Part shown: piece by piece, positions 23,825-44,648 of the stretch | How positions within the stretch are numbered: the first letter of the stretch is position 1 | How the letters are laid out: each line of letters opens with the position of its first letter | NCBI GenBank assembly: GCA_003210695.1 | Contig: QCUW01000003.1 | Span: 1-51,539, forward strand | DNA: 51,539 nucleotides | Source: Prochlorococcus sp. AG-679-P15 | Lineage (GTDB): Bacteria > Cyanobacteriota > Cyanobacteriia > PCC-6307 > Cyanobiaceae | Reading direction: 5' to 3' | The notes under the pieces: generated by a model | Told to the model about the DNA's origin: nothing | Databases searched by the model: none | What the model saw: only the letters and a program-made list of their open reading frames with translations | Program-made: the position numbers and the translations under genes

Positions 23825-24874
23825 CTAACTAATTAAAAAATGATCCCAACTTACTGGCGTTGCATTTTCAATATCTTGATTCACAATTTTACCGATCAAT
23901 AATTCGTAATATTTGGGATCAAGGCCATAACCAGGTCTAACACATCTCAAGGATTCCTTATTAAGTTTTTCTCCTTTTTTAAGATCTTTTGCAAAATAAA
24001 GTGATCTCCTAGTTTTCCTATCATCAATCTCACAAGGTGTACAATCAAAAGTTGGTTTTCCAATTGAACTCCAAGCTTCATTTATATTTCTCAAAAGTAA
24101 TTTGGTATCGTTAAGATTTAATGCGAAAGAGGAATCGATTGATGCTGGACTTTTTGCATCAAAAATATGTTTCTCAATAATATTAGCTCCGAATGCAATT
24201 GCTGCGCAGGATGCTCCTATTCCTAAAGAGTGATCACTAAATCCTATGGGAGAAGAAGAAAATATTTCTCTATAAGTTTTTAAAGTTGAAGTATTTATAT
24301 CCTTAAGAGGAGCAGGATAAGAAGATGTACACTTCAAAATTGCAATATTTTCTTCAGATAAATACTTACGCGCGGCTAAATAAGCATCGTATATTTCTGA
24401 CAAACTTGACATCCCTGAACTTATGATTAGCGGTTTACCCTTAGAAGCAGCATATTCAATTAAAGGAATATCAATATTTTCATAGCTAGCAATTTTATAT
24501 GCAGGACAATTAAGTTCCTCTAAGAAATCAACAGCAGTTTTATCGAAAGGAGAACTAAATGGAATTAAATCTAATTCTCTAGCATAATCAAATATTTCAT
24601 GATGCATTTCCCAAGGTAAAAATGATTTTGAAAAAAGTTTAAATAGTGTATAACCTTTCCCAAGACCAGTATTAATAGAAAAGTCTTTTTTCTGACTATT
24701 TAAAGTCATTGTTTCTGGTTTAAAAGTTTGAAATTTAATAAATTTTCCGCCAATTTCAGAATATTCTTTAATTATATTTTTAACTGTTTTAATCGATTTA
24801 TTATGGTTACCACTAATTTCACCAAATAAAACTGGGGGACAATTTTTACCAATATTTATAGCTGATATTTTCAA
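23825..24874 (-). CDS. pseI: pseudaminic acid synthase PseI
   Basis: PseI condenses the 2,4-diacylamido-2,4,6-trideoxy-altrose sugar with phosphoenolpyruvate to form pseudaminic acid. The NeuB-type TIM barrel shows EISGNHNKSI, FSSPFDKTAVDFLEEL, YKIASYENIDIPLI, ISSGMSSLSEI and GFSDHSLG. The C-terminal SAF (antifreeze-like) domain is near residues 285-349. The phrase SSPFDKTAVDFLEE favours PseI over sialic acid NeuB. The 349 residues match the family. It is last in a minus-strand run with the PseG-GNAT gene just upstream. Confidence 0.93.
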   Translation of the reverse strand: MKISAINIGKNCPPVLFGEISGNHNKSIKTVKNIIKEYSEIGGKFIKFQTFKPETMTLNSQKKDFSINTGLGKGYTLFKLFSKSFLPWEMHHEIFDYARELDLIPFSSPFDKTAVDFLEELNCPAYKIASYENIDIPLIEYAASKGKPLIISSGMSSLSEIYDAYLAARKYLSEENIAILKCTSSYPAPLKDINTSTLKTYREIFSSSPIGFSDHSLGIGASCAAIAFGANIIEKHIFDAKSPASIDSSFALNLNDTKLLLRNINEAWSSIGKPTFDCTPCEIDDRKTRRSLYFAKDLKKGEKLNKESLRCVRPGYGLDPKYYELLIGKIVNQDIENATPVSWDHFLIS

Positions 24875-24902: not shown

Positions 24903-26486
24903 TCACAAACTATTTTTATATATAAGTTTATTAAAAATAGATATATCATTAATTTTAAATGCTTTTTTAAATATCTTTCCATATCGCTCATTTATTTTAG
25001 TATCTATAATTTCAAATCCCAAATTCAAGTTCATTTTTAATACATGTTTATTATCTGTATGAATAATCGCTAACCATGTGTGATTAGGATATTTTAGTTT
25101 GCATTCTTCTAGTTGTTTTTTTACTAATGCATAGGCATCCCAAAAAGACCTTTTATATTTTGATCCAAACCATCCACCAATTAAAAAATATTCATCATCA
25201 ATTTTTTTAGACTCTTCCCAAATTACTATTTTTTGTTGATTATTTCTTACAAAAAGTTTTGATTCTCTTGAGGTTTTTTTTAGCCACCAAGTATAGTGCT
25301 CCAATCTTTTGATGATTTTTGTATTCCCCATTATTTTCCTAGTAGAATGAAAATTTCTCAAATTTAAATATTCGTTCATATACTTAAAATCTCTTTTGAT
25401 TGTATCGATTTTAGGATAATTAAATTCATTTTTTTCTTTCGATTTGTATGAGAAATCATTATTTAAAGAACTACTTTTAATATTTCTTACTATTTCTTCC
25501 TGTCCTGAAAAATTGATATTTTTGGATCCCCATTTATAACTAACTATTCTTTTGTATTTTGAAAATATTTTTTTTACGAAGTAACCTAAAGAACTTTTCA
25601 AAGAAGTTAATTCATTATTGGGAATATAAAACCATAAACCCAATTCGTTATAAAGTTCACTTGAATTAGACTGATTTTTATTCAATTCAATACAAATAGT
25701 TGGTTTAGAGAAATATGAAGCCTCATACATTTGAGTACTACTTGAGGTTATAAATAATTTTGTTTTTTCAATATATGGTAATAAATTTGGAACATTTGTT
25801 TTGAAAATAATATTTCTCTGAAAAGATTTTTTCCACTTTAAATTTTTCAACTTTTCTGAAGATTTTGAAATTACATAAATCTTTTTATTATTTAATCCAT
25901 TAATATTTTCGATAGATGTAAGACAATCTTTGATAATCTTAAATTGTTCAGAATATCCGAGACATATTAATATATCTGAATTCAAATTTAAATTTTCTTT
26001 TGTTTTTTCTTTAAAATTTATGTCGGATATAAAAAATTTCGAACCTAAAAGATATTTTGCAGATTTATTAACGTTATAATTTCGCCATTTATTTAATGCG
26101 AGAGGATTGTAGTCAATAATATAATCAGCCGAGGAATAAGTTGGCTTATCTAAAATTCTTAATACCTTATTTAAATAAGAAAAATCCTTTAAACTTTTTA
26201 CTAAGTCATCACTTATTTTATAGGAATCGATAAGGGCAAAAAATTCAATATCATTCTTTTTAAATTGAGTTAATTGAAAATCTAATTGATCATAGTAGGA
26301 AATTTTTTTAGGCAAATTAAATTGATTAAAAAGATTTATTGTATCGTCATGAGGACTTTCTTCAAAAAATAAAATAATTTCGTCAATATTATATTTTTGT
26401 ATAAAAGAATTAATTAATAAATACGATCTTTTTACATGTCCAAAACCAGATTTAAGAGAATTATCTATTAAAGCAATAAATTTCAT
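24903..26486 (-). CDS. pseG: PseG hydrolase fused to a GNAT (PseH-like) acyltransferase
   Basis: Residues 1 to about 330 form a PseG-type UDP-sugar hydrolase. The nucleotide-binding loop GFGHVKRS includes His17, the residue used as catalytic base in characterised PseG. A GT-B-like half contains ITSSSTQMYEASYFSKPTICIEL. Residues about 360-505 form a GNAT domain, with a cofactor-binding region and the late asparagine/leucine motif IHTDNKHVLKMNLNLGFEII. In model systems PseG and the N-acetyltransferase PseH are separate proteins; here they are one 527-residue chain, in the gene order pseI, pseG-H. The GNAT donor may be acetyl-CoA or another acyl group. Confidence 0.85.
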   Translation of the reverse strand: MKFIALIDNSLKSGFGHVKRSYLLINSFIQKYNIDEIILFFEESPHDDTINLFNQFNLPKKISYYDQLDFQLTQFKKNDIEFFALIDSYKISDDLVKSLKDFSYLNKVLRILDKPTYSSADYIIDYNPLALNKWRNYNVNKSAKYLLGSKFFISDINFKEKTKENLNLNSDILICLGYSEQFKIIKDCLTSIENINGLNNKKIYVISKSSEKLKNLKWKKSFQRNIIFKTNVPNLLPYIEKTKLFITSSSTQMYEASYFSKPTICIELNKNQSNSSELYNELGLWFYIPNNELTSLKSSLGYFVKKIFSKYKRIVSYKWGSKNINFSGQEEIVRNIKSSSLNNDFSYKSKEKNEFNYPKIDTIKRDFKYMNEYLNLRNFHSTRKIMGNTKIIKRLEHYTWWLKKTSRESKLFVRNNQQKIVIWEESKKIDDEYFLIGGWFGSKYKRSFWDAYALVKKQLEECKLKYPNHTWLAIIHTDNKHVLKMNLNLGFEIIDTKINERYGKIFKKAFKINDISIFNKLIYKNSL

Positions 26487-26496
26487 AATTTCATTA

Positions 26497-27891
26497 TTAT
26501 TGACCTAATAATTTTGAAAAATCATTTTTTATAGATTGAACATCTATTTTCCCATTATCTAATAATGGCAAAACCTTGTATTCCTTATATATTACGGGTC
26601 TCATATAAGATTCCAAGTTGGCGATAGCATATTCTCGCAATAAATTAACTATATCTTTAATAGTTGAATTAAATATTGCACAACATATAGCATCTCCTAT
26701 TCTTTGCATTTTTACTGAAGTAATAAATAAATTTATTGATTGATCGATTCTCGATAACCTCTCTTTTATGTCCATACAAGAAACTTTATAACCGCTTACC
26801 TTAATGATGTCATTATTTCTTGAAATAAAGTGCAATATATTTTTATTATCTAAATATCCATAATCATCAGTTTCAAAAAAATTATCTTTCAAAAATTTTT
26901 TCGAATCAACAAATTGCTTATCTATTACGTATCCTAAAAAACACCATTTTGTATAAGCAGCAATTCTTCCAACTTGAAATCCTTCTTTTGTAATCATATT
27001 TTTATCTTTTTCATGAATAATTTTTAATTCGCAGCCTTTTACAGGTTCTCCCATATATGTTTTTGTAATTTGATTATCTAAGCGCGTTAAAGTACAAGTG
27101 CCTAATTCGCTAAGACCGTACATTTCATACGATATTTCACCAAATTTTTCCATAAAACTTTTCCTTGTTTTGTTAGATATGGAGGCACTTGAGGAAATAA
27201 TAATCCTATGATCATTTGTTCTATACAATTTTTCTTGACAAATCTCAAGATGTGTAGATATTGGAATGGATAATGTTACATTATTTTCAACAAAAGCATT
27301 TATAAAATCCTTCTTATTAAATTTATTAATGTATACGATATTAGCGTTTGCATTCATTGCAACATGAATCAATCTTTGACCTAGCGAATGAGTGTAAGGA
27401 GAACTACAAAAAACAGTATCCTTACTATCTACTTTAAACAATTCTATTAATTGTTTTGCTCTTAATTTTTTTGTATCTTCACCGAATATTATTATTTTCG
27501 ATTTCCCTGTGGTACCTGAAGTACTTGAGCATAAGTAAGGTCTTTTTTTTTTAACGTTTAAAATACGAAAGTTCTTCTTTATTGAAAAAGATAATTTTTT
27601 ATCTATATCATATTTTATAACTACAATAGGTTCTATTTCATTAATAAAATTATCAATATTTTTATTCAAGTTACTACCCATTGGTAAATGAATAAAGCCA
27701 AGCTTGTAAAGAATTTTAGTAAATATATAATTATAAATTAGATCATCACAAATTGTTATAACTAGAGTGTTATTTAGTCTATATTTAGATGAAATATTTT
27801 TTAGTTCTCTTAAATTATTTTCTAAATCTATTATTACATTTTGTAATTTAATTTTTTTAACTATTCCACTTTCAATTAATGTAATTTGCAT
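26497..27891 (-). CDS. AMP-dependent acyl-adenylating enzyme (ANL superfamily)
   Basis: A 464-residue ANL-family adenylating enzyme. It is complete by motif: the P-loop STSGTTGKSK (residues 123-132), YEMYGLSELGT, the ATP-binding DDYGYLDNKNILHFISRNND, and the C-terminal catalytic lysine in DNGKID. It activates a carboxylate as acyl-AMP and passes it to a thiol. The immediate neighbour on the other strand is a lone acyl carrier protein, which is the obvious acceptor. It is shorter than many fatty acyl-CoA ligases. Substrate unknown; a small organic acid or amino acid for sugar acylation is my inference. Confidence 0.85.
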   Translation of the reverse strand: MQITLIESGIVKKIKLQNVIIDLENNLRELKNISSKYRLNNTLVITICDDLIYNYIFTKILYKLGFIHLPMGSNLNKNIDNFINEIEPIVVIKYDIDKKLSFSIKKNFRILNVKKKRPYLCSSTSGTTGKSKIIIFGEDTKKLRAKQLIELFKVDSKDTVFCSSPYTHSLGQRLIHVAMNANANIVYINKFNKKDFINAFVENNVTLSIPISTHLEICQEKLYRTNDHRIIISSSASISNKTRKSFMEKFGEISYEMYGLSELGTCTLTRLDNQITKTYMGEPVKGCELKIIHEKDKNMITKEGFQVGRIAAYTKWCFLGYVIDKQFVDSKKFLKDNFFETDDYGYLDNKNILHFISRNNDIIKVSGYKVSCMDIKERLSRIDQSINLFITSVKMQRIGDAICCAIFNSTIKDIVNLLREYAIANLESYMRPVIYKEYKVLPLLDNGKIDVQSIKNDFSKLLGQ

Positions 27892-27920
27892 ATCAATATA
27901 TATAGAATGAAAATTATATC
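27892..27920. promoter_or_regulatory. 29-bp divergent spacer between acyl-adenylating enzyme and ACP
   Basis: Two divergent start codons are separated by only 29 bases. Any bacterial promoter for either gene must therefore overlap the other gene's coding sequence. This arrangement forces coordinated or competing transcription. No clear -10 box can be singled out in this AT-rich DNA. Confidence 0.4.
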
Positions 27921-28157
27921 ATGAGTAACTTTATTAAAGATATAAGGAAACAAATTAGTTCATACGGAAAAATTAATCTGCTTGAAATAGAAAACAATAT
28001 TGATATATTTGAGGCTGGATACTTAGATTCAATTGAAAGCTTGGAATTTTCAATTTATCTTTGTAGTAAATACGAAAATTTAAATCATAATGACTTATCT
28101 AATTTAGAAATAATTAGTATAAACAATATTATTAATCTAATTAATGAGAATCGATAA
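27921..28157 (+). CDS. acyl carrier protein
   Basis: A 78-residue carrier protein with the phosphopantetheine site GYLDSIESLEF, Ser37. It is much more divergent than a housekeeping AcpP and carries an acidic helix typical of dedicated carriers in specialised pathways. It is divergent from the adenylating enzyme across 29 bases. Its 3' end overlaps the convergent Gfo/Idh/MocA gene by 17 bases. Most likely it receives the acyl group from the adenylating enzyme and hands it to a sugar acyltransferase; this is inferred from neighbours. Confidence 0.85.
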   Translation: MSNFIKDIRKQISSYGKINLLEIENNIDIFEAGYLDSIESLEFSIYLCSKYENLNHNDLSNLEIISINNIINLINENR

Positions 28158-29232
28158 CCTCCCATTTGTTACTTCTAATACTTCTATTAGCAGATTCAAA
28201 AAAAGCTAATCCTTTTATAGCTGTCTCAATCCCAAATACATTTTCTTTCTCCTGATTATGTAAGATAAAGTTTTCAATTGAATTATAGTAATTTGCTAAA
28301 GCCTCTATAAAGCCAGATGGATGACCAGGTTTCATCCTTTCGCAATTTATCAAATCATTTGAAAAGAAATCTGAGCGCGTGAGAATTTGTCTTCCCTTTT
28401 CATTAGTTATTTCTAAATCCTCAGGGTAAGATTGTTTCCATGAAATTGTACCTTTTTCTCCTACTACTTCTAAATAGAGACCATTATCCTCTTTTAAATT
28501 AGCTTTCCCATGGATCATGGAGCCGATAGCATCTCTATCGGTACGAAATAAATAATGTGAGGTTTCTTTAACATGAAAATTTTTTGATAATCTTTGATTA
28601 CCAATTACATTTATTAATTTATGCCCAGTCACATATTCAATTAAATTATGTAAATGGGTTCCAAGATCTAGGTCAATATTAGGTATTAAACCTTCGCTCA
28701 ATCGCCAAGATTGAGGACCATTTTTTTCATTTGAAGATAATGATACTCTTTTCAAGAAGCTTCTTTGAGGCATTTTTGCATGTATCTCAGTAATATTTCC
28801 TATCTCATTATTTCCAATTATCTTTTTTGCTATTTTTACGATTGGATAACCAGTATAGTTATAAATAACGAATAAATTTTTTCCTTTTAATTTATCTCTT
28901 AATTCTAATGCCTCATCTAGAGAACAACATAAAGCTTTTTCACAAATAATATTTTTGTATAAATCTTTAGCAACAATAATATTAGAAAAATGATCTGGTG
29001 TCGGTGTAATAATTGATAGGCAATCAATATCTTTTCTAGAGGAAAGTTGTTTCATATCTGAAAAATTATTCATGCATTCTGGTTTCCATTCAATGAAAGA
29101 ATCTAAATTTTTTATTTCATTTCTGCTGAAAATCCCACTATCAATTTGATGTTTTCTATCAATTGATATTGCAGCTCTATGACACATTCCTGCTGGAGAT
29201 CCCTTACCTCCCCCTAAAATTGATATTCTCAT
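28141..29232 (-). CDS. Gfo/Idh/MocA family oxidoreductase
   Basis: A 363-residue NAD(P)-dependent dehydrogenase of the Gfo/Idh/MocA family, which oxidise or reduce sugars. The N-terminal Rossmann domain starts ILGGGKGSPAGMCHRAA, and the lysine/histidine catalytic region includes CEKALCCSLDEA (EKP-type motif with Ala) and DLGTHLHNLIEYVTG. It is convergent with the ACP gene (17-base overlap) and divergent from the radical SAM gene. Substrate unknown; a keto-sugar or hydroxy acid linked to the nonulosonic acid pathway is possible. Confidence 0.82.
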   Translation of the reverse strand: MRISILGGGKGSPAGMCHRAAISIDRKHQIDSGIFSRNEIKNLDSFIEWKPECMNNFSDMKQLSSRKDIDCLSIITPTPDHFSNIIVAKDLYKNIICEKALCCSLDEALELRDKLKGKNLFVIYNYTGYPIVKIAKKIIGNNEIGNITEIHAKMPQRSFLKRVSLSSNEKNGPQSWRLSEGLIPNIDLDLGTHLHNLIEYVTGHKLINVIGNQRLSKNFHVKETSHYLFRTDRDAIGSMIHGKANLKEDNGLYLEVVGEKGTISWKQSYPEDLEITNEKGRQILTRSDFFSNDLINCERMKPGHPSGFIEALANYYNSIENFILHNQEKENVFGIETAIKGLAFFESANRSIRSNKWEVIDSH

Positions 29233-29295
29233 TAACTTAATGTACTATTTCAATAGTATCTCAAATTAGTAAAGATTATCAAAACCTGTTTAAGT

Positions 29296-30591
29296 ATACA
29301 ATCAGCCGTTTACTTAGCACCAAATGAGATTAGAACTTGTTGTCAAAGATTTTTTAGGAATCAAACTTTATGTGGAGACGTAGTTCTCTTAAAGACAAAA
29401 GATATTAACTCTAATGCAATTTTAAAAGGCTTACTTGATGCGAAATCTAAATTAATCGCCAAAATTAATGATCCCAAAGATGATGACCCATGCACAGGTT
29501 GTCACTCTTTAATTGATTCAGACTCTAATTCACCAGAAGAAGAAGTTTTAATAAATCATATATCAATTGAAACCGATACTACATGTAACATGAGATGTGT
29601 ATATTGTAGTCCAACTTATTATGGCGGAGACAAATCTAATTATGATCCTGTTGCTCTAATTGAGGAGATGTACAAAAAAGGTGTTCTAGATAAATCAGTA
29701 GTCATCTATTGGGGTGGAGGGGAGCCTACAATTGGAGAAGACTTTGAAAATAGGCTAGAGAGACTAACTAAAATATTGAATATAAAATCAATTAGATTTT
29801 TTACAAACTCAACTAAAAAAAGTAAAGGAATATCTAAATGGCTTATAGAAGGTAGAGCACAACTAACAACCTCAATTGATGCTGGGATTGAATCAACATT
29901 TAGAAAAGTAAGAGGGCTTAATGGGATGCATAGGGTTTTATCTAATCTTGAGAATTACAAAAATCTCATTGATAACCCTCAGAAAATTACAATTAAATAT
30001 ATTTTTAATAATGATAATGCAAATGAGAATGATATTGATGGTTTTATAGAGAATATAAAAAAATACAATTTAACAGAACTTCCTTTGCAAATAAGCTTAG
30101 ACTTCAAAATTGAAAAGCCATCTATACATATCTATAAAACAGCGCTTTATTTATACGGTAATCACATTAAAGTTTCAAAAACGTTTAATGCTTTTTTTGA
30201 TGATCATTTTTTACATTCTATTTCTAGGATGTTAAAAAAAGGATTAAAAGATAAAACATATGATTCATTATTAGACTTGGATATTATTAAAAAAATTATT
30301 GCATTTGCTGAAAATTATGAATGGGTTATTTGGGGTACAGGATCTTTTGCTAAATATCTTTATTCAGAAAGTTTTATAAGTTCTATTAAAAAACCAATAG
30401 CTTTAATAAGTAGTGAACCTTTGAAAGAAGAAATTAAGGATATTCCGGTAAAAGATCCTTCTTATATTAAAAATAGCAAGAAAAAAATTTTTATATGTCT
30501 TGGATCTGTTAGTTATAGAAAACAAATTATTCAGAAAATAAAAGAATCAGATATTCCAGAAGATCAGATCGCTAATATTCCTTTCCTTTAA
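29296..30591 (+). CDS. radical SAM protein with C-terminal Rossmann-like domain; no orthodox start codon
   Basis: The frame is open from 29257 to 30591. The radical SAM cluster motif Cys-x3-Cys-x2-Cys is in TTCNMRCVYCS at about 29584-29607, upstream of the first in-frame ATG (29590). An N-terminal cysteine-rich part carries VYLAPNEIRTCCQRFF and DDDPCTGCHS. Yet no ATG, GTG or TTG lies in frame before the cluster, and the best position by length is an ATA at 29296. The C-terminal part has EWVIWGTGSFAKYLY, a nucleotide-binding-like loop. It may use a rare start, carry a lost start codon, or contain a sequencing error. Function unknown. Confidence 0.65.
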   Translation: MQSAVYLAPNEIRTCCQRFFRNQTLCGDVVLLKTKDINSNAILKGLLDAKSKLIAKINDPKDDDPCTGCHSLIDSDSNSPEEEVLINHISIETDTTCNMRCVYCSPTYYGGDKSNYDPVALIEEMYKKGVLDKSVVIYWGGGEPTIGEDFENRLERLTKILNIKSIRFFTNSTKKSKGISKWLIEGRAQLTTSIDAGIESTFRKVRGLNGMHRVLSNLENYKNLIDNPQKITIKYIFNNDNANENDIDGFIENIKKYNLTELPLQISLDFKIEKPSIHIYKTALYLYGNHIKVSKTFNAFFDDHFLHSISRMLKKGLKDKTYDSLLDLDIIKKIIAFAENYEWVIWGTGSFAKYLYSESFISSIKKPIALISSEPLKEEIKDIPVKDPSYIKNSKKKIFICLGSVSYRKQIIQKIKESDIPEDQIANIPFL

Positions 30592-31571: not shown

Positions 31572-32270
31572 TTACTCTTTCAAACTATAAAGTGCTTCAG
31601 CAAAATCCCAATCTTCCTCTGTATCTATATCTATAGCCTTATCTCTTGATAATTGATATCCAATATATCCTTTATCCTTTACTTCTTTATCTGACTCTAA
31701 AATAAATCTACTAGGATAGATAACAAATGTTCCTGAGTCATAATAACTTTTTGGTAAATCTTGAGATCTAATTTTTGTTTTATCTTCAAACCTTGGATGA
31801 ATAAAGTTATTTTTATCTTTCAGAAATGACCACTCAATAGGGACGGGATATTCCGCAATAGCTAAAAGAGGTTTAATCGAATTAATATTCTGTGCACTAT
31901 AAGTTTTTGAAGCAGAAATTAAATCATTCTTATCAATTAATGGAGAACATGCCATTAATAGCCAAACTTCATCGAATTGATATCCCTTTGATTTATAAGT
32001 ATTCAAGACAAATGATAGGACCGGCATCAGAGGGGTAAAGTCATCAGACAAAGTTTGTGGTCTCATAAAATCTATAGATAATCCATTATTCTCAACAACT
32101 TCTTTAATTAAATTACATTCTGTAGAAACGTGGATTTTATTGAATAATTTACTTTCTCTAGCTGTATTGATTATGTAATTAATAATTGGTTCTCCACAAA
32201 AATTTTTTATATTTTTATTTTTAATTCTTTTTGAGCCACCTCTGGCAGGAATAATTGCTAATCTTTTCAT
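31572..32270 (-). CDS. pseF: pseudaminic acid cytidylyltransferase PseF
   Basis: PseF activates pseudaminic acid with CTP to give CMP-pseudaminic acid, the donor for transfer. The CTP-binding motif is IIPARGGSKRIKNKNIKNF (residues 6-24). Downstream motifs FMRPQTLSDDFTPLMPVL and WLLMACSPL match the family. The 232-residue length is typical. Assignment to PseF rather than NeuA rests on the linked pseB/pseC/pseI genes. Confidence 0.9.
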   Translation of the reverse strand: MKRLAIIPARGGSKRIKNKNIKNFCGEPIINYIINTARESKLFNKIHVSTECNLIKEVVENNGLSIDFMRPQTLSDDFTPLMPVLSFVLNTYKSKGYQFDEVWLLMACSPLIDKNDLISASKTYSAQNINSIKPLLAIAEYPVPIEWSFLKDKNNFIHPRFEDKTKIRSQDLPKSYYDSGTFVIYPSRFILESDKEVKDKGYIGYQLSRDKAIDIDTEEDWDFAEALYSLKE

Positions 32271-32294: not shown

Positions 32295-33599
32295 TTAATT
32301 GAGCCTTTTAAATTTATTATGGCAAACTTCAGTTTCTAGTAGATTATCTATATTTCTTCCTCGCTCGCACTCTCCAATAATTTTAAAGATGTTTTTAAGT
32401 TTTTCATTATATTCCTCAAAAATTTTTTCATTATGAGCCATTGAAATAAAAACTATATTAGAAGATAAATATCCTTCCTTTAACATCTCTTGTGTGATAA
32501 AAGTTTTATATTTTAAAAAATCTTTTGAATTTATAATGAATTGTGGAATAGGTTTAATTCCTCCAATACTAATTGATAAGTTATTTTCAATAGCAAGATC
32601 CCTCCAAACTGACCTTACTTTATCCCCTAGAGCTGAAACATATTCCCAACTTTTTAACTTTTTCATAACTTCAAGTGTTTTTAGTGCTGCAGTTGGCCCT
32701 ATTCTTTCTGTCCAAAAAGTACTACTTATAAATGTTTTCTGAGCAGCTTGCATAAACTTCTTTTTACCAATTACTGATGTAATTGCATACCCATTACCTA
32801 AAGCTTTTCCGAACATACATATGTCAGGACTTACATTGTGTTTTAAATGTATACCGCCTAAAGTCTCTCTAAAACCAGATGTACACTCATCAAATATAAG
32901 TATGATATTTTTCTTATCGCATAAATCTCTGACTTTTCCTAAAAAATCATTCTCTGGAGGGTTACTTCTTTCTACTTCCATCTTGATTGCAGCAAGATCA
33001 TTATTTTCAACTATTTTTAAAAGTTGTTGAAAATTATTAAATTGAAAAGGAAATGTTGTGCCACTTAAATTTTTCGGAACTCCAATTGGATCTAAACCAG
33101 GTAATAGATGCTCTGATAAATTTGAATCGTTTTGTAGATTTGTAGCTAGATACCAATCATGCCATCCATGATATCCACAAATAGCGATTTTATCTTTACC
33201 AGATGAAGCTCGAGCAATTCTAATTGCAATTGCATTTGCTTCACCTCCAGATCTTGCAAATCTAGCCATTTCTGCCCATGGATGTATTTCTATAAGTTTT
33301 TCAGCAAGGAAAACTTCCTCAGGGCAATTTAATGTACTCATGTTCCCTAAATTTATTGTTCTTCTTACAGCTTCATCAACTTCTTCATTTCCATAACCCA
33401 ATAAATTTGTGCCAATACCCATAATACTCATATCAATTAATTCTCTTCCATCTAAATCCCAAACAGAACATCCTTTTGCCTTGGAAAAATAGGAGGGCCA
33501 TTTGTCTGGAAGAAACATTTCTGGTCTTTTTGAGAGAAGCATGTTCCCACCGGGAATTATTTCCTTTGCTTTATTCCATAATTTTTGGCCAGAACTCAT
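32295..33599 (-). CDS. class III aminotransferase, glutamate-1-semialdehyde aminomutase-like
   Basis: A 434-residue PLP-dependent class III aminotransferase resembling HemL. The PLP lysine is Lys265 in MFGKALGNGYA, and the PLP-pyridine Asp237 is in FDECTSGFRE. It lies 24 bases upstream of pseF on the same strand. HemL-like proteins are frequent in nonulosonic-acid gene clusters, where they probably aminate a sugar or side-chain precursor. It is not the essential housekeeping HemL, judging by context. Substrate unknown. Confidence 0.82.
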   Translation of the reverse strand: MSSGQKLWNKAKEIIPGGNMLLSKRPEMFLPDKWPSYFSKAKGCSVWDLDGRELIDMSIMGIGTNLLGYGNEEVDEAVRRTINLGNMSTLNCPEEVFLAEKLIEIHPWAEMARFARSGGEANAIAIRIARASSGKDKIAICGYHGWHDWYLATNLQNDSNLSEHLLPGLDPIGVPKNLSGTTFPFQFNNFQQLLKIVENNDLAAIKMEVERSNPPENDFLGKVRDLCDKKNIILIFDECTSGFRETLGGIHLKHNVSPDICMFGKALGNGYAITSVIGKKKFMQAAQKTFISSTFWTERIGPTAALKTLEVMKKLKSWEYVSALGDKVRSVWRDLAIENNLSISIGGIKPIPQFIINSKDFLKYKTFITQEMLKEGYLSSNIVFISMAHNEKIFEEYNEKLKNIFKIIGECERGRNIDNLLETEVCHNKFKRLN

Positions 33600-33617
33600 T
33601 AATTTTTGCTAATTCTT

Positions 33618-33623
33618 AATATA
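33618..33623 (-). promoter_or_regulatory. candidate -10 box for the aminotransferase-pseF run
   Basis: TATATT on the minus strand, about 19 bases before the ATG of the class III aminotransferase at 33599. It lies in the 137-base divergent region with the aldo/keto reductase. A consensus match only. Confidence 0.25.
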
Positions 33624-33720
33624 GAATAGTTCTTAATTAATTAAATTTGTAAGCAGTATTTTGAAAACTATAAAATAAAAAGAAATTAAAAATTTTAAAT
33701 AATGAATCCTCAAAAACATT

Positions 33721-33726
33721 TATAAT
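33721..33726 (+). promoter_or_regulatory. candidate -10 box for the aldo/keto reductase-pseB run
   Basis: A perfect TATAAT ends ten bases before the ATG at 33737. That spacing would give a nearly leaderless mRNA. The surrounding DNA is very AT-rich, so chance occurrence is likely enough to keep confidence low. Confidence 0.25.
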
Positions 33727-33736
33727 TTAATTTCAT

Positions 33737-34606
33737 ATGCAATCAGAAAAATTAAAAAAAATTATTATAGGTACTGCACAATTTGGAATGAACTATGGAG
33801 TTTCAAATACAACAGGCATCCCTAATCAAACGGAATTGAAAAATATTATTAATTACTGTCTGGAAAACAATATTAATTATTTAGATACTGCTGCCTCTTA
33901 TGGTAATTCTGAAATAACATTAGGAAAAACAGGAGTAAAAGATTTTAAAATAATAACTAAAATTCAAGTTAATAAAAACTGCGACTTCCAAAGCCTGTTA
34001 TCCACTTTGAAAGATAGTTGTGAAAAATTGAAAGTTAATAAACTAGAGGGATTACTTTTACATTCATATATTTCTTCAAAAAATGACGATCATTTTTTTT
34101 CACTCTTAGAAGAAATTAAGAATACTAAATTAGTAAATAAAATTGGTTTATCAATTTATAATGCTGAAGATATGATTAAAATTCATAAAAAATTCTCAGT
34201 AGATATTTTTCAAATACCGCTAAATATTCTTAACAGAGGTTATTTTTTAGACGAAGTTTTAGATGATGTTAGATCGAGCGGTGCAGAGATTCATATAAGA
34301 TCTATTTTCCTACAAGGTTTATTATTGATGGATAAAAATGTTAGACCTTCATACTTTAAAAAGTGGGAAAAATTATTCCATGAGTGGGATTTATGGTTAG
34401 AGGAGCAGGGACTATCGTCACTTGAAGCATGTTTATCTTTTGCTTTATATTCCAAAAATGTTGATAAGGTTTTAATAGGTATTGATTCATTAAAACAATT
34501 AAAAGAAATAGTTAAAAAATTTAAGAATCTTAAAAAGATTAAGTTCCCAAAAGCATTTATTTCTCAAGATAACAATTTGATCAATCCCGCTAATTGGAAA
34601 TTTTGA
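33737..34606 (+). CDS. aldo/keto reductase
   Basis: A 289-residue member of the aldo/keto reductase superfamily, with the NADPH-dependent barrel fold. The catalytic tetrad appears intact: Asp50 and Tyr55 in YLDTAASYGNSE, Lys75 in IITKIQ, and His109 in GLLLHSY. It is divergent from the aminotransferase and upstream of pseB. Reductases of this family are often linked to pseudaminic or legionaminic acid loci, but the reaction has not been assigned here. Confidence 0.85.
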   Translation: MQSEKLKKIIIGTAQFGMNYGVSNTTGIPNQTELKNIINYCLENNINYLDTAASYGNSEITLGKTGVKDFKIITKIQVNKNCDFQSLLSTLKDSCEKLKVNKLEGLLLHSYISSKNDDHFFSLLEEIKNTKLVNKIGLSIYNAEDMIKIHKKFSVDIFQIPLNILNRGYFLDEVLDDVRSSGAEIHIRSIFLQGLLLMDKNVRPSYFKKWEKLFHEWDLWLEEQGLSSLEACLSFALYSKNVDKVLIGIDSLKQLKEIVKKFKNLKKIKFPKAFISQDNNLINPANWKF

Positions 34607-34809: not shown

Positions 34810-35832
34810 ATGAATTTAGAAGAAATTACTAATTTATTAATAACTGGTGGTACTGGTAGCTTTGGTAGGGCTTTTGTTCCAGAAGCGTTAAAGCGATTAC
34901 CAAATTTGAAGAGATTAGTAATTTTCAGTAGAGATGAGTTAAAGCAATTCAATTTACAACAAAAATACCCATCTGATAAATATCCACAACTAAGATTTAT
35001 ACTTGGTGATGTAAGGGATCAAAATAGTTTAAGAAGAGCTTTTGAAGGAATCGATTCAGTAATCCATGCGGCAGCGTTTAAACAAGTCCCAGCTGCGGAA
35101 TATAACCCAATAGAATTTATTAAGACTAATATTCTAGGCTCAGAGAATATAGTAGAAGCATCTTTAAGTTCATCTGTTAAGCAAGTCATAGCTCTTAGTA
35201 GTGACAAAGCAAGTTCCCCTATAAATCTTTATGGGGCAACAAAATTATGTTCAGATAAATTATTTATTGCCGCAAATAATATCAAAGGTAAAAAAAACAA
35301 GCATTTTTCAGTTGTAAGATATGGCAACGTTTTGGGCTCAAGAGGTTCAGTAATACCTTTTTTCATAGAAAAGGCAAAAACCGGATTAATTCCCATAACT
35401 TCTAGAGAGATGACTAGGTTTAACATTACATTAAATGATGCAGTTAATATGGTTTTTTGGTGTATGAAGAATTCCTGTGGGGGAGAGTTATTTATTCCTA
35501 AGATACCTAGTTATAGAATAACTGATTTAGCAGAGGCAATAGGACCTTCTTGCAAAAAGGAAATAATAGGAATACGTCCTGGTGAAAAAATTCATGAAGA
35601 GATGATATCAATGGCAGATGCTATTAATACAATAGATTTAGGAAAATACTATGCAATTTTGCCATCTGGATGTACTTTAAATAAGAATACGATAGAGGAA
35701 AATTGGGGTAAATTTAAATTTCTCGAAAAAGATTTTACTTATAACTCACAAAACAATTCCGATTTTCTAGATATTGATCAAATTAGATCATTAATTAAAA
35801 AACATTATTTAAGTTCTTTTGTTCCAAAGTAA
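34810..35832 (+). CDS. pseB: UDP-N-acetylglucosamine 4,6-dehydratase (inverting) PseB
   Basis: PseB converts UDP-GlcNAc to the C5-inverted 4-keto-6-deoxy sugar, the first committed step to pseudaminic acid. The 340-residue protein has the NAD loop ITGGTGSFG and the diagnostic SSDKASSPINLYGATK block, with Asp132, Lys133, Tyr141 and Lys145. These are the same positions used in the Helicobacter enzyme FlaA1. The upstream gap of 203 bases leaves room for its own promoter. It is followed by pseC after 265 bases. Confidence 0.95.
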   Translation: MNLEEITNLLITGGTGSFGRAFVPEALKRLPNLKRLVIFSRDELKQFNLQQKYPSDKYPQLRFILGDVRDQNSLRRAFEGIDSVIHAAAFKQVPAAEYNPIEFIKTNILGSENIVEASLSSSVKQVIALSSDKASSPINLYGATKLCSDKLFIAANNIKGKKNKHFSVVRYGNVLGSRGSVIPFFIEKAKTGLIPITSREMTRFNITLNDAVNMVFWCMKNSCGGELFIPKIPSYRITDLAEAIGPSCKKEIIGIRPGEKIHEEMISMADAINTIDLGKYYAILPSGCTLNKNTIEENWGKFKFLEKDFTYNSQNNSDFLDIDQIRSLIKKHYLSSFVPK

Positions 35833-36097: not shown

Positions 36098-37282
36098 TTG
36101 GAAAAGAATTTTTTGCCATATAGTAGACAAGATATTAGCGAAGAGGATATTCAAAGTGTCAATAATGTTCTTAGAAGTGAGTTCCTTACCCAAGGTAATG
36201 TACATAAAGAATTTGAAAACGCTATAGCTGCAAAAGTTAAAAGTAAATATTGCGTCTCTTTTAATAGTGCCACAAGTGCTCTTCACATTGCTTGCTTAGC
36301 GTTAGGATTAAGAAAAGGTGATATTCTTTGGACTACCCCTACAACTTTTGTTGCCTCAGCAAATTGTGCAATTTATTGCGGCGCAGAAATTGATTTTGTA
36401 GATATTGACTTAAAAACAGGTCTTATGTCTGTTGAACTTTTAGAGGCAAAACTTTGTGAAGCATCCAAAATTGGTAAATTACCTAAAATAATAATTCCAG
36501 TACATTTAGCTGGATCTAGTTGTGACATGCCAAGTATCAATAATTTATCTAAAAAATATGGTTTCCGAATTATTGAAGATGCAAGTCATGCAATTGGAGG
36601 ATTATGTAATGGGTTTAGTGTTGGATCCTGTGCATATAGTGATATTACTGTTTTCAGTTTGCATCCAGTAAAAATTATAACTAGTGCTGAAGGAGGTCTC
36701 GCTACTACGAATTCAAAATCCATATCTGATTTAATGAGAACTTTATCTAATCATGGAATCATAAAAGATAAAAATAACTTTGTAGGTGATAATTTTGAAT
36801 CTTGGAGATATGAGCAACAATCATTAGGATTTAATTACAGATTGAGTGACGTGCATGCCGCTTTAGGTATTAGTCAGTTAGAAAGATTAGATTTTTTTAT
36901 AAAAAAAAGAAATGAAATTGCGAATACTTATAAAAAAGAACTAAATCATCTTCCACTAAAGTTTTTACAACCTTATGATTTCGTTAAATCTACATATCAT
37001 TTGTTCATAGTTAAATTAGATAAAAGTAATAAAGAAATTCATGAAAATATTTTTAATTATTTGAGATCCAAAGGTATTGGAGTTCAGTTACATTATTTAC
37101 CTGTTCATTTACAACCATTTTATTTAAATATGGGCTTCTCAAAAGGGTTATTTCCAAATTCTGAGAATTATGCAATATCATCTTTTTCTCTTCCTATTTT
37201 TACTTCAATTACGAATGAAGATATTAGAAGAGTAGTTTATGAAATGAGTAATGCTTTAAAGTTCAAAAATAATATTTATTAA
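36098..37282 (+). CDS. pseC: UDP-4-amino-4,6-dideoxy-L-altrosamine transaminase PseC
   Basis: PseC is a PLP-dependent aminotransferase that adds the C4 amino group to the PseB product. The 394-residue DegT/DnrJ/EryC1-type protein has the internal-aldimine lysine Lys192 in SLHPVKIITSAEGG, and TTPTTFVASANCAIYCGA in the cofactor site. The start is TTG at 36098, the only good initiation codon before the conserved MEKNFLPYSRQ. The gap to pseB is unusually long for consecutive pathway genes. Confidence 0.93.
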   Translation: MEKNFLPYSRQDISEEDIQSVNNVLRSEFLTQGNVHKEFENAIAAKVKSKYCVSFNSATSALHIACLALGLRKGDILWTTPTTFVASANCAIYCGAEIDFVDIDLKTGLMSVELLEAKLCEASKIGKLPKIIIPVHLAGSSCDMPSINNLSKKYGFRIIEDASHAIGGLCNGFSVGSCAYSDITVFSLHPVKIITSAEGGLATTNSKSISDLMRTLSNHGIIKDKNNFVGDNFESWRYEQQSLGFNYRLSDVHAALGISQLERLDFFIKKRNEIANTYKKELNHLPLKFLQPYDFVKSTYHLFIVKLDKSNKEIHENIFNYLRSKGIGVQLHYLPVHLQPFYLNMGFSKGLFPNSENYAISSFSLPIFTSITNEDIRRVVYEMSNALKFKNNIY

Positions 37283-40558: not shown

Positions 40559-41344
40559 ATGAATGTCAAGCAATTATCTCACCAATGGCATCAATCAGGA
40601 GTTCAAAATGGAGACTGTATCCTCCTTCATTCTAATGTGAAAAGGTGGTACAGAAAAATTTATAAGACTGGAAATAAAGCACCTCTTGCCACAATCTTGA
40701 ATTCATTTATTGAAGCTTTGGGAGCAAGAGGAACATTAATCATTCCATTATTTAATTTTGATTTCACTTCAGGGAGTACATTTGATATGCGAAATACTCC
40801 ATCACAGATGGGTTCTCTAACTGAATATGCTAGGAAAATTACAAATTCTGTTAGATCAGGACATCCTGTTTATTCTTTTTGCGCATTCGGAAAATATGCA
40901 AGTGAGATCACTAGTATTAACAATTTAAGTGCTTATTCAGAAGAATCTCCTTTTGGTTTTCTTAAGAAAATAGGAGGTAAAATTGCTATCTTGGATCTTG
41001 AGGATCAAGAAAGCATGACTTTTTATCATCATGTTGAAGAAATTTGTGGAGTTAAATATAGAGTTATGAAAAATTTTAAATCTGATTATATTGACCAAAA
41101 AGGTAAGAAAACTCTTCAAAAAAAATACTCAATATATGTAAGAGATATTGAAAAAGGAGTAATAACTCATGTTAATCCTGCTGGAGAAGGAATGTGGGAT
41201 GAAGGCATTTATGAAGGTGATCGTCCTGGTGTAAATTCAGGCCTTAGAACGGCATCAGCAATAGAAGTTTGTAACTATGCCAAAGAAATTATTCAATCAG
41301 GTAAAGCAGAAGGAAAATTATTTAAATATGAAAAAAAGATTTAA
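40559..41344 (+). CDS. AAC(3)-family N-acetyltransferase
   Basis: A 261-residue protein of the aminoglycoside 3-N-acetyltransferase family (Antibiotic_NAT). Visible are GDCILLHSNVK, RGTLIIPLFNFDF, RSGHPVYSFCAFG and YHHVEEICG, including the conserved His-Glu/Asp region. In a polysaccharide island it more probably acetylates an amino sugar than an antibiotic. It is followed by an AT-rich hairpin with a seven-T run, a likely terminator. Confidence 0.85.
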   Translation: MNVKQLSHQWHQSGVQNGDCILLHSNVKRWYRKIYKTGNKAPLATILNSFIEALGARGTLIIPLFNFDFTSGSTFDMRNTPSQMGSLTEYARKITNSVRSGHPVYSFCAFGKYASEITSINNLSAYSEESPFGFLKKIGGKIAILDLEDQESMTFYHHVEEICGVKYRVMKNFKSDYIDQKGKKTLQKKYSIYVRDIEKGVITHVNPAGEGMWDEGIYEGDRPGVNSGLRTASAIEVCNYAKEIIQSGKAEGKLFKYEKKI

Positions 41345-41506: not shown

Positions 41507-41713
41507 ATGTTTAGAGTCTCTCACTTGTCTAGCTCTTGTATTTTAATTAAGACAAATTATTCTAACATTTTATGTGATCCAGTTCTTCGTAACCCGGATT
41601 ATGGAGGCGGGCTTTTATATCCAAGATTATCTATTGATTTATTCCAGAAAACTCCCATAAACTATATTTACATAAGTCATATAAATGAGGATCACTATGA
41701 CTCAAAATTATAG
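41507..41713 (+). pseudogene. truncated metallo-beta-lactamase-fold fragment
   Basis: A 68-codon frame matching the N-terminus of metallo-beta-lactamase-fold hydrolases, with FRVSHLSSSCILIKTNYSN and the metal-site region YISHINEDHYDSK. The canonical motif has His in the position where Asn is found here. The protein stops right after the motif, whereas family members run to 200 or more residues. Its last 17 bases are also the start of the COG4310 gene in another frame. It is probably a deletion remnant. Confidence 0.6.
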
Positions 41714-43004
41714 TAATGAGGATTTATCAGCAGGAAAGGAAATGCTTTTATTTGCTAAAGATTTGTTCCCTCTTAATAGGTCATTAATGGGGCCAGATAT
41801 TCGAGAATCATTTAAAAAGTTCAGAGATAAACATGAAGATTTCAAACAAATAGAATTTAATACAGGTGATAAAGTATTTGATTGGACAGTACCAAAGGAA
41901 TGGATTATCAAAGAAGCTTTTATTGAGCACGAAAGCGGTAAAAGATTTGCTCTGTTTTCTGAAAATAATTTACATCTTATGGGTTATTCTGCTCCTGTAG
42001 ATGAAATTTTAACCAAAGATCAGCTTCTTAAAAAGATTCATACGCATCCTTGGGATAAATCAGCTATCCCATATGTTACCTCTTACTACAAGGAAGATTG
42101 GGCATTTTGTATGTCTAGCAATCAAGTTGAAGCTCTACCATCAGGAAATTTTAGAGTATTTATTGATTCACAATTTTTAGATGGAAAACTTTGCCTTCAA
42201 GAAGCCTTAATTAGAGGTTTATCAGATAAAGAAATATTTTTTTCTTCATATTTATGTCATCCATCAATGGCTAATAATGAACTTAGTGGGCCAGTTCTTT
42301 TAAATAAAATAATGGATTATGTAAAATCAATGCCAGACAAATATTATTCATATAGATTTATTCTTTTGCCTGAGACTATTGGCTCCATAGCATATCTTTC
42401 ATTAAGAAAAGATATTTTAAAAAAGAATGTTGTTTGTGGATTTAATTTATCTTGTGTTGGTGACGAGAGAGCTTATTCTCATATTGAATCAAGACTTGGG
42501 AATAATCTTTCAGACCTTGCATTGTCTTCAGCTTTAATTGATCTTGAAAATGTTATTCATTACTCTTATTTAGAAAGAGGATCAGATGAACGTCAATATT
42601 GTGCACCAGGTATAGACTTGCCTTTGAGTACTTTCTGCAGATCAAAATTTGGCGAATATGATGAGTATCATTCCAATAAAGATAATTTTGATTTGGTCAC
42701 AGAAAAAGGATTAGCTGGTTCTTTTAGTGTTATGAAGTCAATTATAAGGAGCTTTGAATTTGGAATTTATCCTAAATTAAATTTATTTTGCGAACCTCAG
42801 TTGGGTAAGCGTGGACTATATCCTAATACTTCGAAACTTTATAAAGATAAACATCCTGCAAAATTAAGAATGGATATTATTTCCTATTGTGATGGCAAAA
42901 TGAGTATTTTTGATATTGCAAAATTGTTAAAAATTAATCTTAGTTTAGTTTTAGATGAGCTTTTAATACTCGCTCGTGAAAATCTAATTATTATTAATAG
43001 ATAA
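41697..43004 (+). CDS. COG4310/DUF4910 aminopeptidase-like protein with C-terminal winged helix
   Basis: A 435-residue protein of the family described as polysaccharide-locus proteins with an M28 aminopeptidase-like domain. Landmarks are FPLNRSLMGPDIRESF at the N-terminus, VFDWTVPKEWII, the metal-region SYLCHPSMANNELSGP, and GSDERQYCAPGIDLPLS. A C-terminal winged-helix-like segment, RMDIISYCDGKMSIFDIAKL, ends the protein. I use ATG 41697 (MTQNYSNED); the ATG at 41685 would add four residues. It overlaps the metallo-beta-lactamase remnant. Peptidase activity in such proteins is unproven. Confidence 0.82.
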   Translation: MTQNYSNEDLSAGKEMLLFAKDLFPLNRSLMGPDIRESFKKFRDKHEDFKQIEFNTGDKVFDWTVPKEWIIKEAFIEHESGKRFALFSENNLHLMGYSAPVDEILTKDQLLKKIHTHPWDKSAIPYVTSYYKEDWAFCMSSNQVEALPSGNFRVFIDSQFLDGKLCLQEALIRGLSDKEIFFSSYLCHPSMANNELSGPVLLNKIMDYVKSMPDKYYSYRFILLPETIGSIAYLSLRKDILKKNVVCGFNLSCVGDERAYSHIESRLGNNLSDLALSSALIDLENVIHYSYLERGSDERQYCAPGIDLPLSTFCRSKFGEYDEYHSNKDNFDLVTEKGLAGSFSVMKSIIRSFEFGIYPKLNLFCEPQLGKRGLYPNTSKLYKDKHPAKLRMDIISYCDGKMSIFDIAKLLKINLSLVLDELLILARENLIIINR

Positions 43005-43908: not shown

Positions 43909-44021
43909 GTGCATTTTAAGGTGCAGATTTCAATAATCAAACGCTATAAAGTACTATAGGAATTAAGGACGTTAAGAAAGAAATCTTAAGATAGATTGAT
44001 ATTACTGACGTTTCGAGTTTT

Positions 44022-44094
44022 GGGGCCATAGCTCAGCTGGTAGAGCACCTGCATGGCATGCAGGGGGTCAGCGGTTCAAGTCCGCTTGGCTCCA
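44022..44094 (+). tRNA. tRNA-Ala (anticodon GGC)
   Basis: A complete cloverleaf can be drawn by eye. The acceptor stem pairs GGGGCCA with TGGCTCC (one G-T pair). The D arm is GCTCAGCTGGTAGAGC, the anticodon stem CCTGC/GCAGG closes the loop ATGGCAT with anticodon GGC, and the T arm has TTCAAGT. The discriminator base is A and CCA is not encoded. It sits inside the variable region, and a partial copy of its 3' half recurs at 48523. Confidence 0.95.
44049..44094 (+). repeat. candidate attachment-site copy 1 (3' part of tRNA-Ala)
   Basis: The 46 bases from the anticodon stem to the discriminator recur, degenerate but ungapped, at 48523-48568 in the same orientation. Such duplicated tRNA 3' ends are classic left and right attachment sites of integrated elements. 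No integrase gene is visible between them. Confidence 0.5.
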
Positions 44095-44648
44095 TCAGGA
44101 TTTTTACTAGTTTTACCAAATAGTTTGGTTAATTTAACATAACAAAAATGATAGGATAAAATATCCTAAAATATGCTTAATTATGCCCTCTCAGCGAGCT
44201 AGTCTGCGAGCCGCACGCCCTGCAAATATGTAAAAGGGTATATATCGTAGTTTTAACTCTTACAGAGCATGGCGAAGCTGATCTGGGAGAAGAAATTACA
44301 AGAAGCAGTAAAGCTTCAGAGGTGTTTTGTTAGTCTGTGGGTGAAATGAAGGTGCTGTTTTTGTATAGCAATTTAATTTATTTTGATGAACCTAATGCCG
44401 ACAAAATATATGAACGTGTTAGGTAAGACATTGATAATTTAGGACGTCTGAGATTTAGAAAAGGAACTATATTAATTATTGGCTGAGATTTATTAGTATA
44501 GTTTCTAAATAAAAATTTCACTATTCCAATTCCTCTTTGAGCTTCTCAACAATATTGAAATAGTTTATATCAAAATTTTGCAGTCTTAAAAGTTTTATTT
44601 CTCTAAGCGTAAATATCAGTGATGCGACCTAATAAAAACTGTAAATTT
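44095..44648. other. decayed stretch downstream of tRNA-Ala
   Basis: This 554-base stretch has no intact gene of size. It contains two inverted repeats, ACCAAA-TAG-TTTGGT at 44115-44129 and TAGGATA-AAA-TATCCTA at 44152-44168. It also holds a 16-codon, unusually GC-rich frame around 44183, a 26-codon frame around 44269 and the broken ORF at 44346. If the tRNA flank is an integration site, this is the likely place for a lost integrase or element end. Confidence 0.4.
44346..44486 (+). pseudogene. broken ORF remnant with internal stop
   Basis: A 47-codon frame starting MKVLFLYSNLIYFDEPNAD has an in-frame TAA at 44424. It resumes as DIDNLGRLRFRKGTILIIG before a TGA. Continued protein-like composition on both sides of the stop suggests a decayed gene. 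No family recognised. Confidence 0.3.

Follow-up and report, generated by a model that had tools for sequence, protein, structure and literature searches.

Why should a pseudaminic acid locus, a pathway whose PseH step ordinarily draws on acetyl-coenzyme A (acetyl-CoA), hold an acyl-activating enzyme and a carrier protein of its own? The question is raised by contig QCUW01000003.1 of Prochlorococcus sp. AG-679-P15 (the whole 51,539-nucleotide stretch analysed is referred to here as the window), in which genes for a PseG–GNAT fusion, an adenylating enzyme of the ANL superfamily and a stand-alone acyl carrier protein (ACP) lie beside the gene for pseudaminic acid synthase. The genome is small and AT-rich (G000; 1.08 Mb in 68 contigs, 69% complete). 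Together these genes form a real, rare and conserved module. N-acylation is the most probable reading of its role; the donor, the acid and the position of the acceptor are those that we infer. The chances are about even that the ligase charges the ACP and that the GNAT domain then moves the acyl group to the 4-amine of a UDP-sugar, which would yield a pseudaminic acid with a custom 7-N-acyl group.

The ligase–carrier–PseG module

The three genes on which a sequence-only reading of the window had first based this idea are real, all being called as open reading frames (ORFs) in the window (Table 1). The grouping it gave them holds with one correction: the ACP gene is on the plus strand, opposite the ANL, PseG–GNAT and PseI genes on the minus strand. 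The ACP and ANL genes are therefore divergent (head-to-head), with 29 bp between them, while the 3′ end of the ACP gene runs tail-to-tail into a gene for a Gfo/Idh oxidoreductase.

The ligase had been described as a complete ANL adenylating enzyme, and it bears this out. It belongs to the ANL superfamily by its match to the Pfam AMP-binding model (PF00501; 65.4 bits, cut-off 29.9), and its catalytic motifs (A3, A5, A7 and A8) and its C-terminal A10 lysine are legible in all four complete members aligned. Its best solved match by sequence is the malonyl-CoA synthetase 4fuq (E 2.4e-17). The carrier keeps the motif DIF..GY.DS, including the Asp-Ser pair with the putative phosphopantetheine-bearing Ser37, in five of five aligned members. 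The PseG part of the fusion matches TIGR03590 across profile positions 1–278 of 280 at 89.8 bits, below the cut-off of 153.55, and its orthologues score 78.8 and 79.0 bits.

The genes for PseI, PseG–GNAT, ANL, the divergent ACP and Gfo/Idh stand in identical order in all three complete loci, namely the window, L032 (the same as L035; genome G188, Synechococcaceae single-amplified genome AG-439-B13) and L040 (genome G557, of the window's genus). A further locus, L034 (G539), carries a glycosyltransferase, a radical SAM protein, Gfo/Idh, ACP and the start of ANL, and is excluded from the complete-locus counts since its contig ends within the ANL gene. As the identical order recurs in L032 and L040, the module is more than chance; the linkage of ANL, ACP and PseG–GNAT, for which a synteny check had been proposed, is kept in each complete locus. 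Linkage to pse genes can be judged in two further loci, and the close ANL orthologue has it in both; the remaining one, L034, ends at the contig edge. Identity to the window is 56% (L040), 63% (L034, partial) and 43% (L032) for the ANL protein, 60%, 57% and 35% in the same order for the ACP, and 49% (L040) and 39% (L032) for the fusion. The Gfo/Idh protein of L032 is 51% identical to that of the window, and the gene is also found in L034, in L040 and, distantly, in L041. The spacing is likewise tight: by ORF coordinates the tails of the ACP and Gfo/Idh genes overlap by 17 bp in the window, 14 bp in L040, 14 bp in L032 and 4 bp in L034, and the gap between the ANL and PseG–GNAT genes is 10 bp in the window and 2 bp in L040, while in L032 the two genes share 4 bp. 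Beyond Gfo/Idh, the window, L040 and L034 share radical SAM and glycosyltransferase genes.

The module is rare. At E 1e-30 or better the ANL profile matched four of 266 genomes of the genus (the window's, G557, G539 and, distantly, G496), and a close relative of the window ANL is present in Prochlorococcus sp. AH-736-N03. A search with the fusion protein (E 0.001) among 300 genomes of the family, two draws of 300 being treated as one set because their listed handles agree, found the window, G188 and G355; a profile of the fusion, run against 400 family genomes, added only G292 and G600, both partial and weak and not inspected for neighbours. A further search matched fifteen genomes, the window's own among them; eight were inspected for neighbours, with G331, G763, G144, G858, G791 and G760 left out. 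The viral, phage and plasmid collections held no close relative of the ANL protein or the fusion, phages giving a single record, at 23% identity, and plasmids 96, none of which reached 60%. No pse genes were recognised around the two plasmid matches inspected, from Vibrio (L028) and Rahnella (L029); the Rahnella ligase adjoins a carrier gene.

The fused domain and the PseH step

The C-terminal domain of the fusion had been called a GNAT domain, a claim that family models do not support and profile comparison does. The domain matched no Pfam GNAT model even at E 5, and did not match the PseH model TIGR03585 (cut-off 93.1) at E 0.01. In hhalign, however, the window-type domain aligned with ordinary PseH-type domains over 126 columns (probability 85.9, E 5e-6), the best of 100 column shuffles giving a probability of 4.8. 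By profile comparison only, it would be a diverged PseH-type GNAT. Identity in the GNAT and PseG parts is 49.1 and 49.7%, 43.2 and 36.8%, and 46.3 and 35.3% in the three pairs formed by the window, L040 and L032. The GNAT part is thus conserved about as well as the PseG part or better in every pair, which argues for function, and the idea of a decaying relic was dropped on the same grounds.

Aligned with two stand-alone PseH proteins (L069 and L090), the window type keeps the Arg-Asn of a WRN-type motif, an Arg, the His of an EH-type motif, a Trp and a late Asn. Seven columns (Asn, Arg, Ile, His, Trp, late Asn and Phe) are invariant among true PseH, ordinary PseG–GNAT fusions and the window type; the WRN Arg is common to the window type and true PseH, and is Ala in two ordinary fusions of that alignment. 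According to the accessible part of its description, HpPseH contacts a modelled UDP-sugar through Arg30 and His49, the pantetheine through Asn131 and the pyrophosphate through Gly103 and Lys133, with Tyr138 as general acid (PMC4363471). By motif only, the WRN Arg, the EH His and the late Asn may correspond to Arg30, His49 and Asn131, and the place of Tyr138, matched in the same way, holds Asn in four of four window-type domains and Phe or His in the others aligned. A PseH relative compared with solved structures matched the PseH entries 4xpk and 4ri1, at lower rank.

Ordinary PseG–GNAT fusions occur in other cyanobacteria, and five were inspected (L063–L067). Their GNAT domain has the same position in the polypeptide and in the pathway as that of the window type, which by profile is likewise a PseH-type GNAT. 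The C-termini of two were scanned, and both exceeded the Acetyltransf_3 cut-off and scored 73 and 25 bits with TIGR03585, against 93. The window type differs from canonical PseH and from these fusions in matching no ordinary PseH or GNAT model, in the adjoining ANL and ACP genes, and in having lost the loop glycines. The loop binding the pyrophosphate of CoA is reported, in the text available, to follow the consensus Gln/Arg-x-x-Gly-x-Gly/Ala (PMC4964394). In a joint alignment the strict form, [QR]xxGx[GA], is present in four of the five ordinary fusions, RGYGYS standing in its place in the remaining one, and in none of the four window-type domains. L069 and L090 keep a loop glycine where the window type has Asp (three) or Thr (one). 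No ANL or ACP profile match lay within the 16 kb inspected near the five ordinary fusion loci.

A search for TIGR03585 at E 1e-6 found no match in G188, G557, G539 and G355, and a match in all 11 other genomes searched, two of them over the cut-off. Given one gene each and independence, the probability that PseH is missing from all four through incompleteness is about 1%. For the PseH step of the module no candidate is stronger than the fused domain, though others are possible.

The route would then run as follows. From their family membership, PseB and PseC would produce UDP-4-amino-4,6-dideoxy-AltNAc. The ANL enzyme would adenylate a carboxylic acid, probably one other than an alpha-amino acid, and load it onto the phosphopantetheine of ACP Ser37, and the diverged GNAT fused to PseG would place the acyl group from acyl-ACP, in place of acetyl-CoA, on the 4-amine of the sugar. 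The PseG domain of the same polypeptide would next take off UDP, and PseI and PseF, judging from their families, would complete the CMP-activated nonulosonic acid. The Gfo/Idh oxidoreductase might make or trim the acid, for which a hydroxy acid is tentatively the likeliest class. The full proposal, that a PseH-step GNAT fused to PseG has switched from acetyl-CoA to a dedicated acyl-ACP and yields a 7-N-acylated nonulosonic acid, probably bearing a hydroxy acid, is put forward as a tentative one, somewhat short of an even chance.

Alternative roles for the ligase and the carrier

Several observations weigh against the acyl-ACP route. The first concern the loop, and they favour an alternative, on balance unlikely, in which the GNAT domain is an ordinary acetyl-CoA-dependent PseH with an atypical loop, and ANL and ACP feed some other, perhaps O-linked, acylation of the nonulosonic acid by another transferase. 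The P-loop of HpPseH is itself described as atypical, yet acetyl-CoA was bound (PMC4964394, in the part available), and neither of the over-cut-off stand-alone PseH proteins L069 and L090 has the strict consensus. Since true PseH loops are atypical too, the loss of the loop is suggestive only, and alone is no proof of an ACP donor. Among the groups reported on pseudaminic acid are O-acetyl and di-O-methylglyceric acid (PMC3068675, seen in part). This alternative sits less well with the tight spacing or overlap of the ANL and PseG–GNAT genes in all three complete loci, with the loop glycines kept by the ordinary PseG–GNAT fusions and, as regards O-linked acylation, with the fact that no separate O-acyltransferase common to the loci was recognised by eye.

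The structural and family evidence has gaps of its own. AlphaFold gave no confident fold, with a pLDDT of 48 for the whole fusion and 41 for the C-terminal domain from two sequences. The carrier, claimed as a stand-alone ACP, stands by its Ser37 motif but not by its family score: with PP-binding (PF00550) the window protein reaches 14.1 bits, below the cut-off of 20.8, and the other four aligned members, at 15.4 to 20.6 bits, are below it as well. The absence of PseH is confounded, because the genomes without a match are exactly the incomplete ones: G188, G557, G539 and G355 are 77, 58, 65 and 71% complete, whereas the 11 matching genomes are at least 90% complete and mostly far larger. G000 itself has two matches to TIGR03585, at 36 and 35 bits (E 4e-9 and 1e-8), both below the cut-off of 93, one of them the GNAT gene at 1572–2123 of the window; with G000 counted, the tally of PseH matches is one in five. 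As these two sub-cut-off matches lie in the window's own genome, a PseH acting in trans is possible.

G355 counts on both sides. It is an independent case in favour of the acyl-ACP route, having a PseG with a window-type domain and an ACP/ANL cassette on another contig. Against the route, no ANL or ACP profile match was found in 34 of the 47 kb of the contig with the fusion, and the ANL protein encoded by the distant cassette matches the window ANL profile weakly, at 33 bits. Window-type ACPs were found by profile in five of 300 family genomes, and the co-occurrence of fusion and ACP in three of those five is biased, since the ACP profile was built partly from the window and G188; G355 is the sole independent case, with a chance expectation of 3/298. 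The ANL gene in question belongs to a one-strand cassette (L079, 5359–9648) of hexapeptide transferase, ACP, short-chain dehydrogenase, formyltransferase and ANL, which appears to serve sugar decoration. On the fusion contig the next gene past PseI is FabZ (L033, 3–1195), a fatty-acid dehydratase in a nonulosonate island, which overlaps an FAD oxidoreductase frame by one base; with that frame as neighbour, its being a housekeeping gene of an lpx locus is unsupported.

The last point concerns AAC(3)-type N-acyltransferases (PF02522), which are present in G000, G496 and G372. In G496 a distant ANL/ACP/Gfo-Idh cassette sits with AAC(3) and not with PseG–GNAT. This cassette (L041, 6524–11960) comprises Gfo/Idh, a 548-amino-acid protein with an AAC(3) N-terminal domain, ACP, a divergent ANL and a phosphopantetheinyl transferase; no pse gene was recognised within the 20 kb inspected, nor did the PseG-fusion profile match there. 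In G372 an ACP gene, above the PP-binding cut-off, overlaps an AAC(3) N-acyltransferase gene (L084, 568–1669), possibly a two-gene unit for carrier-fed acylation. An ACP/ligase pair occurring independently of pse genes had been named as evidence against the proposed route; this is partly borne out, by the distant G496 cassette and the G372 ACP/AAC(3) pair, whereas the close orthologues are pse-linked in the two further loci that can be judged. Without proving it, the G496 and G372 cases suggest that carrier-fed N-acylation is more widespread in the polysaccharide islands of picocyanobacteria. An ACP-like gene in G269 (L085, 9563–9808) overlaps an asparagine-synthase-like gene and is followed, by eye, by PIG-L-like and GNAT-like frames.

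That the ACP of the window serves its AAC(3)-family protein (40559–41344) is improbable. The overlap of ACP and AAC(3) genes in G496 and G372 speaks for such a partnership, as does the presence in the window, as in G496, of both AAC(3) and DUF4910 genes; in G496 these stand beside the ACP/ANL cassette. The window AAC(3) gene, however, is 12 kb away, and at E 0.001 AAC(3) was not found in G188, G557, G539 or G355; all four genomes are incomplete, and the module is complete in two of them. AAC(3) as an obligatory partner was dropped after this four-genome search.

An amino-acid loader of the DltA/DltC kind, giving an N-aminoacyl sugar, is very improbable. The nearest named models of the ACPs do include DltC, below its threshold. 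In adenylation domains for amino acids, the amino group is bound by the Asp of an FDxS-type motif; at that place the ANL protein reads HSLGQRL, and without the Asp its substrate is more likely to be an acyl acid than an alpha-amino acid. The proteins that it matches best are acyl- and malonyl-CoA ligases. Least probable of all is that ANL and ACP provide a lipid anchor or liposugar with its fatty-acyl chain, as proposed for Aeromonas islands with fatty-acid-type genes (PMC7874193, seen in part), for among window ORFs of at least 110 amino acids no ketosynthase or LuxC/LuxE was recognised by eye, no profile search having been made.

The surrounding island and related systems

The module lies in a larger island with the remaining pseudaminic acid genes (Table 1). 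The radical SAM frame stays open to about position 29257, some 111 codons 5′ of its first ATG, and relatives are listed with a TTG or GTG start there. A class III aminotransferase and an aldo/keto reductase (32295–34606) adjoin PseF, a pair also listed for Aeromonas group I pse islands in the available text (PMC7874193). The AAC(3) gene of the window is followed by one for a DUF4910/DUF2172 protein (41685–43004). Downstream of the sugar genes, a tRNA-Ala(GGC) gene (44021–44096) may mark the edge of the island.

Table 1. Genes of the module and of the pseudaminic acid pathway in the window
Feature	Position	Strand	Remarks
PseI, pseudaminic acid synthase	23825..24874	-	TIGR03586 370 bits, above cut-off 340.25
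PseG (about residues 1–340) with putative diverged PseH-type GNAT (about residues 365–527), 527 aa	24903..26486	-	
ANL-superfamily acyl-activating enzyme, 464 aa	26497..27891	-	AMP-binding 65.4 bits
Stand-alone ACP-like protein, 78 aa, Ser37	27921..28157	+	GYLDS motif
Gfo/Idh/MocA oxidoreductase	28141..29232	-	By Pfam; constant partner of the ACP/ANL pair
Radical SAM protein	29590..30591	+	C-terminal end with sub-threshold PglD-N resemblance
PseF-like cytidylyltransferase	31572..32270	-	TIGR03584 189.4 bits, below cut-off 205.7
PseB	34810..35832	+	TIGR03589 469.9 bits, cut-off 407.75
PseC	36098..37282	+	TIGR03588 504 bits, cut-off 423.5

The sequence-only reading had supposed a layout of this kind to be undescribed, which does not stand. 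Both the pairing of a ligase with a carrier in pse islands and a comparable proposed route are already in print, as far as the accessible portions of the papers cited here go. Aeromonas group II flagellar glycosylation islands, like the window, combine pse genes with those for an ACP and an AMP-dependent synthetase (PMC7874193), and similar genes are noted in flagellin islands of Enterobacteriaceae (PMC4875605). The Aeromonas islands differ in carrying 3-oxoacyl-ACP reductase, luxE and luxC; their authors suggest a liposugar, and the portion seen states no link to a PseG–GNAT protein (PMC7874193).

The nearest system in mechanism appears to be that of Vibrio cholerae O1. Its RfbL reportedly activates 2,4-dihydroxybutanoate and joins the acid to either CoA or the carrier RfbK, to supply the tetronate by which perosamine is N-acylated (PMC3441752, PMC12208996). 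RfbL/WbeL and RfbK, like the window pair, are an ANL-type ligase (471 against 464 amino acids) and a carrier in a surface-polysaccharide locus and, likened by description, both would provide a hydroxy acid with which a 4-amino-4,6-dideoxy sugar is N-acylated. The V. cholerae system differs in its acceptor, which is perosamine and not a pseudaminic acid precursor; charging of CoA or of RfbK is left open, and no PseG fusion is mentioned in the text available.

Campylobacter jejuni provides a looser parallel. Its PseG and PseH are separate proteins, and its Cj1295 is presumably of the DUF4910 type. Likened by description, its flagellin locus is, as in the window, a pse locus with a putative ACP, annotated as Cj1308 (PMC6338021), and Cj1295, a putative aminopeptidase, has been tied to the di-O-methylglyceric acid derivative of pseudaminic acid (PMC3068675). 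No PseG–GNAT fusion tied to an ANL/ACP pair was found among the listings and passages of the literature searched, whose coverage mostly leaves out subscription journals.

The literature found notes ACP and ligase genes in pse islands without assigning them a step. In the present module the partner to which PseG is fused, the changes in that GNAT domain and the gene spacing point to one step, that of PseH, which could be assayed with three small proteins. If the proposal is true, the module would provide a sequence sign of which nonulosonic acid clusters bear custom N-acyl groups. A surface sugar of these organisms may then carry a custom acyl group in place of plain acetate, which would give Prochlorococcus and Synechococcus a means to vary the surface sugars that face phages and grazers.

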